In this document: positions 60,229-62,614 of the stretch, one piece after another
How the letters are laid out: the number at the start of each line of letters is the position of its first letter
Position numbering within the stretch: position 1 is the first letter of the stretch
Assembly: GCA_028873595.1 (NCBI GenBank)
Contig: JAPPOV010000030.1
Coordinates: forward strand, 62,001-126,000
Length of the DNA: 64,000 nucleotides
DNA from: Gemmatimonadota bacterium
GTDB taxonomy: Bacteria > Gemmatimonadota > Gemmatimonadetes > Longimicrobiales > Gaopeijiaceae
Direction: 5' to 3'
The notes under the pieces: generated by a model
What the model saw: the letters and a program-made list of their open reading frames with translations, nothing else
Told to the model about the DNA's origin: nothing
Databases searched by the model: none
Translations under genes and position numbers: made by a program

Positions 60229-60657
60229 TCACGGGAGGGGACGGGGGCGCCAGGCGTCTTCGATGTGCTCGCAGCGGACCACGTGCCCTGCGTTGATCTC
60301 GATGGCGACCACGTCGAAGCGGACGTCCAGGTCGTGGGGAGCGATGTTACTCAGATAGGCGAGCGCCACCGCCTCGATCTCCCGACGTTTCCTCACGGTA
60401 ACGGCCTCTTCAGGCGCCCCCCAGCCTCGTCCAGAACGTGTCTTCACCTCTACGAAGGCAAGAGTGCTTGCACGCCGACCGATGACATCAATTTCCCGAC
60501 GGCCGAGTCGATAGCCGTGTTCGAGGATACGCCATCCGCGGGACCGTAGGAATTGCATTGCGATGGCTTCGCCTCGGTTCCCCAGCGCGTGGGGCGGATG
60601 GTCTGGCAGGGAGTCGTCCATATGCGAAGCATCGGGCGCGTCCTCCGCCTGATCCAT
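60229..60657 (-). CDS. UPF0102 endonuclease-like protein YraN
   Basis: 142 aa. UPF0102 signature: GNRGEAIAMQFLRSRGWRILEHGYRLGRREIDVIGRRASTLAFVEVKTRSG, including the E-I-D and E-V-K residues of a nuclease-like fold. The ATG at 60657 has GGAA upstream and was preferred to the longer reading from 60876, which would run through the SRP RNA promoter and gene. Convergent with the DAHP synthase gene. Confidence 0.9.
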   Translation of the reverse strand: MDQAEDAPDASHMDDSLPDHPPHALGNRGEAIAMQFLRSRGWRILEHGYRLGRREIDVIGRRASTLAFVEVKTRSGRGWGAPEEAVTVRKRREIEAVALAYLSNIAPHDLDVRFDVVAIEINAGHVVRCEHIEDAWRPRPLP

Positions 60658-60691: not shown

Positions 60692-60720
60692 TTGACCTGG
60701 TACGGGGGCCCGGGTAGCTT
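60692..60720 (+). promoter_or_regulatory. Candidate promoter for the SRP RNA
   Basis: TTGACC at 60692-60697, 17 bases, TAGCTT at 60715-60720. The predicted start at about 60727 coincides exactly with the 5' base of the RNA stem. Confidence 0.65.
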
Positions 60721-60726
60721 CCCGAC

Positions 60727-60824
60727 TGCCCCAGGTCCGCAGGGCGAAAGCTCACGAACTCCGCCAGGACCCCGCAGGTAGCAACGGTAAGTGCGGTGAT
60801 CGTCGCTGCGGGTTGCCTGGGGCA
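60727..60824 (+). ncRNA. ffs: Bacterial small signal recognition particle RNA (4.5S type)
   Basis: About 98 bases. The outer stem TGCCCCAGG pairs with CCTGGGGCA and then CCGCAG with CTGCGG. Inside, CCGCCAGGACC and AGGTAGCAACGG hold the Ffh-binding element: CAGG on one side and AGCA on the other, with an A-T, C-G, C-G stem between. The apical loop is CCGCA (60772-60776) where nearly all bacterial SRP RNAs have GGAA. Its position just before dnaX-ybaB-recR matches Bacillus, where scr precedes dnaX. ATTTTG follows the stem as a short terminator tail. Confidence 0.8.
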
Positions 60825-60865
60825 ATTTTGATTCAGGCTCGACTTTAACGCCGGTCGCCAAAGAA

Positions 60866-62614
60866 TTGAGCCACAAGGCCTTAGCGCGAAAGCATCGACC
60901 TCGCTCCTTCTCGGAGGTGGCGACCCAGGAGCACGTCTCCGAAACGCTTCGAAGGGCTGTTGCGACTGATCGCGTTGGTCATGCCTATCTCTTCTGCGGT
61001 CCGCGGGGTGTGGGAAAGACCACGCTGGCCCGCGTACTCGCCATGGCACTCAACTGTCCCAAGCGTACGGACGGGGGCGAGCCGTGCGGCGAGTGCGAGT
61101 CGTGCACGCGGATCTGGGGCGGGCACACGGCCTTGGACGTTGTCGAGATCGATGCCGCGTCCAACCGTGGTGTCGATGACGCCCGGGATCTTCGTGAACG
61201 GGCGATGTACGCCCCCTCTGCCGAGGGGCGCACGAAGGTCTACATCGTCGACGAGGCCCACATGCTCACGCGGGAGGCATGGAACGCTCTCCTGAAGATC
61301 CTCGAGGAGCCGCCCCCACGCGTCATCTTCGTCTTCGCAACGACCGAGCCCCAGAAGATCCAGCAGGCTGCAGCCCCGATTCTATCCCGGTGCCAGCGCT
61401 TCGACTTCCGACGCATCGGGGTGCTCGACATCGTTGCGCGCCTCTCGATCGTCCTGGCCGAAGAGGGGGCCCAGGCACCGGAGGACGCCCTGAGGATCAT
61501 CGCCAGAAAGGCGGACGGGGGGATGCGTGACGCTCTTTCGCTTCTCGACCAGGTCATCTCGCTGACGGGTGGGGAGATCGACCTCGACTCGGTGCGGCGT
61601 GTTCTGGGCCTCGTCGAGGACGAGCGGTACCTCGAGCTCGTCGATGTACTCCGCGACAGTCGTCACGATGCGGTCTTCGGACTCGTTCAAAGCCTGGTGG
61701 ACGAGGGCTATGATCTGGTCGAGTTCTACCACGGCCTTCTGGACGTGCTTCGGACCATGCTGCGGTTGAGGTTGTCCCCGGATGCCGACGTCGACGTTCA
61801 GGAAGACATCCGGACGCAGTTATCAGAGCGCGCCTCGGCCTTCGCTCCCGGTGACCTCGTCCGCATGCTCTCCGCTGCCGCCGACCTCGAAAGTCGGGGC
61901 TCTCTTCGCCGCAGTCCGAACCCCCGCCTACCCATCGAGATGCTCCTGCTGCGTATGAGCTTCCTCGATCGAACCGTCGCACTGGAAGAGCTCATCGGGG
62001 CTCTGGGTGGCGCGCCTCCGTCGAATGGAGGGGCCGGATCCGCCGGATCGAACGGGGGGGCTGGGACGTCCGGGCCTCCCGCAAGTGGTTCGGTTCCAGG
62101 GAATGCGACTTCGAGTGCTTCCGACCCCGAGTCGACGACGGCCGCATCGGCGTCCCCGGAAGAACCGGTCGAGCCGAAGGCTTCCGAGGCGCTCGAGGCC
62201 GTTGCCCGAGAAGAGCCCACGAACCCCGAGCCCGTCGTACCCACCGAGGACATCCGGGAAGCGTGGCGCCGCTGGCTCGACTCCGGACGAGGCATGCCAC
62301 CGGGGCTCAGCCCGTTTCTTCACTCGGCTGCCGTGTCGGAAGACGATACCGGGGCACTCGTGATTACGCCGCTGCCAGGTCCGGCGGTGGACCGGCTTGG
62401 GCAGGCCACGGTGATCGAGGCAATCCGAGAAGGGATGACTCCGTTTCTGGGGCGCCGCCCGGTGTTGCGCGTGGATGCTCCGAACAGCGATCGGGCACGC
62501 CCCGATCGCATTAGCCGGGAGGAAGTTCACGCGGATACGCTGAAGGCCCTGTATCGCCAGGAACCGCGTCTCGAACGGGCGGTAGAAGAACTCGATCTGG
62601 AACTCATGGAGTAA
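60866..62614 (+). CDS. dnaX: DNA polymerase III subunit gamma/tau (DnaX)
   Basis: 582 aa. Clamp-loader ATPase. KHRPRSFSEVATQEHVSETLRRAV, Walker A GPRGVGKTTLARVLA, a zinc site with CPKRTDGGEPCGECESC, Walker B VYIVDEAHMLTREAWNALLKILEEPP, and the sensor region ATTEPQKIQ. A Gly/Ser/Ala/Pro-rich linker at about 375-460 leads to a C-terminal tau-like domain. The start is TTG at 60866, without a clear Shine-Dalgarno. I saw no A-rich slippery site, so a separate gamma product is not predicted. Confidence 0.96.
   Translation: MSHKALARKHRPRSFSEVATQEHVSETLRRAVATDRVGHAYLFCGPRGVGKTTLARVLAMALNCPKRTDGGEPCGECESCTRIWGGHTALDVVEIDAASNRGVDDARDLRERAMYAPSAEGRTKVYIVDEAHMLTREAWNALLKILEEPPPRVIFVFATTEPQKIQQAAAPILSRCQRFDFRRIGVLDIVARLSIVLAEEGAQAPEDALRIIARKADGGMRDALSLLDQVISLTGGEIDLDSVRRVLGLVEDERYLELVDVLRDSRHDAVFGLVQSLVDEGYDLVEFYHGLLDVLRTMLRLRLSPDADVDVQEDIRTQLSERASAFAPGDLVRMLSAAADLESRGSLRRSPNPRLPIEMLLLRMSFLDRTVALEELIGALGGAPPSNGGAGSAGSNGGAGTSGPPASGSVPGNATSSASDPESTTAASASPEEPVEPKASEALEAVAREEPTNPEPVVPTEDIREAWRRWLDSGRGMPPGLSPFLHSAAVSEDDTGALVITPLPGPAVDRLGQATVIEAIREGMTPFLGRRPVLRVDAPNSDRARPDRISREEVHADTLKALYRQEPRLERAVEELDLELME

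Follow-up and report, generated by a model that had tools for sequence, protein, structure and literature searches.

A five-base apical loop in the small SRP RNA of the phylum Gemmatimonadota

SRP RNA is taken to recruit FtsY through an apical tetraloop that hardly departs from GGAA/GNRA, and tetraloops of the UMAC/UNAC type are known GNRA mimics. FtsY recognises the loop together with the two adjacent CC-GG pairs (PMC11404819), which in Escherichia coli are contacted by a basic patch of the protein (PMC11404819; PMC6059433). GNRA-like loops of five bases, in which one base is looped out, are known from solved structures, including phage boxB RNAs and crRNA examples (PMC12550061). In the chloroplast SRP RNA of Physcomitrella patens, which is otherwise recognisable, the apical loop is also larger than a tetraloop, and its 10 nt lower the affinity for SRP54 (PMC5115805). 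The RNA described here shares the enlarged loop, but its insertion is of a single base, the loop sequence differs from that of P. patens and the RNA-binding motif of the Ffh M domain is unaltered.

This RNA is encoded in the window, the whole 64,000-nt stretch of a Gemmatimonadota bacterium contig that was analysed, at positions 60727..60824 of the + strand. The 98-nt hairpin is assigned to ffs, the gene for the small (4.5S-type) SRP RNA, by its match to RF00169, its fold, its status as the sole match in the genome and the presence of phylum-wide orthologues at the equivalent position. Infernal aligned window positions 60729-60825 with positions 1-97 of RF00169, a full-length match (E = 4.1e-6, 38.3 bits). 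Because this score is 1.7 bits below the gathering score of 40 bits, a default Rfam scan omits the gene. Orthologues with the same CCGCA loop score above the cut-off (L082, 45.0 bits; L084, 43.6 bits), so the slightly low value is no sign of a false locus. The minimum free energy (MFE) structure is a single stable hairpin (-50.2 kcal/mol, z -3.0) that ends in a 3-bp apical helix and a 5-nt loop. Compensatory support for the stem comes from two-sided changes in 11 of 20 consensus pairs of the ffs alignment; RNAalifold leaves out the apical helix, as rows with four-base and five-base loops are out of register at the tip.

Upstream of ffs is the divergent yraN/UPF0102 gene (60229..60657, - strand, start approximate), and downstream is dnaX (60866..62614, + strand, identified with Pfam), encoding DNA polymerase III gamma/tau, then ybaB and recR. 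The initial annotation had proposed an SRP RNA from the stem, the CAGG/AGCA loop and the site before dnaX; the RF00169 match, the fold and the orthologues upstream of dnaX bear this out. The cognate protein partners are encoded elsewhere in the source genome, FtsY at G000:C16:34081-34893 and Ffh on G000:C42. A second ffs with a GGAA loop, which the annotation had raised as possible counter-evidence, was looked for in this genome (94.6% complete); no further ffs was found at E ≤ 10, and the tetraloop-length pattern had no match, that is, no GGAA-bearing copy. Window 60727-60824 is thus the only detectable SRP RNA gene of the genome.

The tip of the window RNA reads CAGG-ACC-CCGCA-GGU-AGCA. The symmetric internal loop for the Ffh M domain is present, with CAGG on the 5' strand (60765..60768, +) and AGCA on the 3' strand (60780..60783, +), both identified by sequence and RF00169 and both invariant in the alignment. 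Beyond it, ACC (60769..60771, +) pairs with GGU (60777..60779, +) to form the apical helix, which encloses the pentaloop CCGCA (60772..60776, +). The GGAA/GNRA tetraloop, which is typical of RF00169 without defining it, is absent. The five-base loop reported in the initial annotation is confirmed by the sequence, by the RF00169 alignment, which places the extra base as an insertion in the apical loop, and by the MFE fold, and the same loop recurs in the tally of relatives. In addition, C60764 (+) and its partner A60784 form a C/A pair in place of the usual U/G beside the symmetric loop. Among 117 related loci, this position is U/G in 110 and C/A in seven, the window RNA included, with no mixed combination; one C/G combination was seen outside this set, in genome G398, in the tetraloop-pattern search. 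The window RNA therefore resembles the E. coli 4.5S RNA in its full-length RF00169 match, CAGG/AGCA loop, hairpin size, single copy and association with Ffh and FtsY, and differs from it in having CCGCA rather than GGAA and C/A rather than U/G.

A putative promoter precedes the gene, with a -35 element TTGACC (60692..60697, +) and a -10 element TAGCTT (60715..60720, +). This box, TTGACC-N17-TAGCTT, went uncalled in a strict consensus promoter scan. Boxes of the form TTGANN-N15-19-TANNNT lie upstream of 67 of the 117 related ffs genes, and the commonest form is the one found in the window. The promoter proposed earlier is thus located and conserved, and its -10 element ends 6 nt before 60727, a spacing consistent with a transcription start at the first base of the RNA. 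An assembly error or a pseudogene, to which the score just under the Rfam cut-off might point, is scarcely credible as the source of the unusual loop. Four independent genomes carry an identical loop in a near-identical RNA (L002, L003, L020 and L036), which refutes it, and the compensatory stem changes and the conserved promoter box also speak against it.

All results were computed from assemblies, mostly metagenomic. Among these, the five-base loop is a phylum-wide trait, not a local oddity or specific to the source genome. Loops of the form N-Y-G-N-A/C (NYGNM) were matched in 236 of the 395 Gemmatimonadota genomes and in 87 of 138 genera. These are minimum counts, since the strict pattern used, CGYCAGGRCC-NYGNM-GGYAGCARCGS, fixes the flanking pairs; the search patterns also fixed part of the loop rule as stated. 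This alignment of loops across relatives, suggested in the initial annotation, gave the variants CCGCA, CCGAA, UCGCC, UUGCC, GUGCA, GUGAA, CCGCC, CUGCA, CUGCC and UCGAC. Nearly all readable tips had five bases, both in 80 named Gemmatimonadota loci found by a DnaX search and in loci from 146 genomes of the order. No report of an SRP RNA pentaloop was found in the open literature, outside which most subscription papers lie.

Tetraloops are also present in the phylum. GGAA is found in the basal families f8, f10 and f11, including all six f11 genomes. Elsewhere, GAAA occurs in several genera of family f5, GGAA or GGCA in genus g67, GAGA in g95 and g102, UAAC or UAGC in g64, and GCAC once, in G398; many other matches to the tetraloop-length pattern were due to chance and had no paired tip. 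A purpose-built model, R1, found no ffs in 10 searched genomes of family f3, and RF00169 gave weak matches of 22-26 bits in two of its genomes (L310 in G006 and L311 in G012), both with the tip CAGG-GCC-CCGCA-GGC-AGCA. These f3 genes are divergent and lie directly upstream of a tRNA-like sequence, not before dnaX.

The sequence of the pentaloop varies at positions 1, 2, 4 and 5. Among the 117 loci, whose loops were extracted with an open pattern, every one of the 113 pentaloops fits NYGNM, and position 3 is G without exception. Their first and last bases are C..A (55 loci), U..C (35) or G..A (23), and those of the four tetraloops are G..A. Tetraloop forms in the phylum are mostly GNRA, or else UAAC/UAGC, and the GCAC loop of G398 breaks the end-pair rule. 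No UUCG loop was seen among the phylum loops read. The apical helix is similarly constrained: the first pair varies among A-U, G-C and C-G, both partners changing together, the second never departs from C-G, and the two CC-GG pairs adjoining the loop are C-G in all 117 loci. In all informative pairs, U1 and C5 changed together in one direction, but independent pairs were few and a sign test was not significant.

A constant G3 and ends of the C..A, U..C or G..A type are the features expected if a GNRA-like fold were kept with one extra base. In such a fold of N1-Y2-G3-N4-M5, the first and last bases would form a sheared-type pair (G/A, C/A, U/C or C/C), G3 would fill the place of the purine R of GNRA and the extra base would be extruded from the loop. 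Such a turn would still offer the basic patch of FtsY the backbone and flanking C-G pairs that it meets in E. coli. End pairs of the C/A, U/C and C/C types are less well documented than G/A. The resemblance to the solved GNRA-like pentaloops of phage boxB and crRNA extends to the five bases, the purine at position 3, the sheared-capable ends and an extrudable base (PMC12550061); unlike these, the Gemmatimonadota loops usually begin with C or U rather than G, and their fold is predicted from sequence. Likewise, the UNAC/UMAC tetraloops share U..C ends with the UCGCC and UUGCC pentaloops and with the UAAC loops of g64, but have four bases where the pentaloops have five. Taking the locus and its relatives as a whole, we consider it likely that the window RNA is an ordinary, functional small SRP RNA of this Gemmatimonadota bacterium, whose pentaloop folds in a GNRA-like manner with one base extruded, preserving the FtsY tether.

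Comparison of the protein partners is in keeping with a preserved tether. Four FtsY residues, K399, W343, V403 and N302, are the same in all 77 Gemmatimonadota proteins compared. R402 occurs in 49 of 49 pentaloop genomes and in 24 of 28 with tetraloops, and the basic patch, at positions 399, 402, 405, 406 and 407, has four or more basic residues in 48 of 49 pentaloop genomes; these residues may also serve RNA contacts at the distal site, and their conservation is therefore no proof that the apical contact persists. The RNA-binding motif of the Ffh M domain, SRR-R-(I/V)-A-x-G-S-G, is intact in genomes with either loop size.

It had been suggested in the initial annotation, which proposed this inspection of Ffh and FtsY, that the altered loop might point to FtsY contacts that had evolved along with it. 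On such an explanation, the pentaloop would have a fold of its own and touch FtsY in a way peculiar to the lineage, perhaps through the extra base, and loop and receptor would have changed together. The looped-out base of solved pentaloops does often touch protein (PMC12550061). In FtsY, residue 366 is D or N in all 49 pentaloop genomes but variable in tetraloop genomes, and K gives way to R at position 406. A column scan of FtsY and Ffh, however, found no column that separates five-base from four-base loops, and the loop itself varies at four of its positions. Aspartate at position 366 (46 of 49 pentaloop versus 15 of 28 tetraloop genomes) is also the E. coli residue, so that nothing new is gained; a new contact would be expected to show the opposite trend, and shared ancestry confounds the comparison. 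Loop size has also changed repeatedly while the contact residues K399, V403 and W343 stayed fixed. With contact residues unchanged and no separating column, co-evolution is unsupported, not disproved, and we regard it as unlikely.

The size changes were traced on a joint FtsY and Ffh tree of 80 rows from genomes with known loops, built by a quick method and with many weakly supported forks; at least 11 changes are required. On this tree, GGAA is the loop of f11, the outgroup class, and of f8 and f10, which branch early. The pattern fits best with a single gain of the pentaloop, the direction from tetraloop to pentaloop being inferred from the outgroup, with repeated returns to GAAA, GAGA, GGAA, UAAC or UAGC. 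The apical tetraloop would thus have grown by one base early in the main radiation of the phylum.

Several sister lineages have no detectable Ffh or FtsY. These are genus g8 (five genomes: G041, G056, G077, G103 and G113), genus g11 (three: G057, G061 and G130), family f9 (seven: G257, G259, G262, G276, G311, G364 and G391) and genera g88 (G204) and g106 (G250 and G299); four of the f9 assemblies are single contigs (G257, G262, G276 and G364). TIGR00959 at E ≤ 1e-40 gave no match in the tested genomes of this group, and seven other genomes in the same search were positive. With PF00448 at E ≤ 0.01, matches were mostly short P-loop scraps, compared with SRP GTPases at E < 1e-65 in the comparison genomes; one match in G391 (2.0e-19) has an FlhF-like look. 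The weak PF00448 matches were rejected as SRP GTPases, their motifs, read by eye, resembling those of ArsA-, ABC-, PilT- and CysC-type ATPases. In g8 and g11, ORFs of about 341 aa encode an ArsA-type-looking ATPase (L345, L348, L351 and L357). SecY is present in 20 of 20 genomes tested and YidC in 16 of 17 tested genomes of the SRP-less lineages. An extended YidC tail as compensation was discounted, the tails being 12-21 aa in SRP-less and 11-32 aa in SRP-bearing genomes.

No credible SRP RNA was found in most of the genomes without Ffh and FtsY. At four g8 loci, a decayed ffs relic lies upstream of dnaX (L014:2325-2460, L015:2324-2460, L032:2325-2460 and L064:2320-2460); it can be aligned to the intact sister L013, and CAGG and AGCA are gone. 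L013 itself (genome G421) has a normal tip with the loop CCGUA, though its genome has neither Ffh nor FtsY, and its ffs match is identical to that of G041, which also keeps an ffs with a normal tip. Nothing ffs-like was recognisable upstream of dnaX at L046 and L047. G113 has one SRP-like core with GGAA (L308, G113:C54:28081-28123), beside a pyrD-like gene near a contig end, which is probably on a contaminant contig.

The SRP-less genomes are 82-95% complete. Any one of them alone would prove nothing, but missing data are unlikely to account for a result on which the genomes agree. Gene absence holds at the thresholds used, and from it an apparent repeated loss of the SRP pathway is inferred, in Gemmatimonadota with genomes of 2-5 Mb. 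Absence of SRP has been reported for Parcubacteria (PMC4508563); no such report for Gemmatimonadota was found in the open literature.

These absences, together with the diversity of loops within the phylum, could be taken to mean that recruitment of FtsY has ceased to depend on the RNA tip, whose loop drifts under weak constraint as SRP becomes dispensable. This is improbable, given the adherence of all 113 pentaloops to one rule with a constant G3, the lack of UUCG and the retained basic patch of FtsY. It is also doubtful, if conceivable, that Gemmatimonadota loosened the RNA-mediated step of SRP and that this tolerance of loop changes accompanied the disappearance, more than once, of RNA, Ffh and FtsY together from several lineages with 2-5 Mb genomes, in which membrane insertion would proceed via SecY and YidC.

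A phylum of pentaloops, with returns to tetraloops on unchanged receptor contacts, amounts to a natural mutagenesis of the contact between SRP RNA and FtsY. This suggests that FtsY may need the backbone shape and the C-G pairs rather than the base sequence. In practice, covariance models and annotators tuned to tetraloops can under-score ffs genes of this kind. The absence of SRP in sister lineages, if true in cultured strains, would provide a natural system for SRP-free targeting of membrane proteins.
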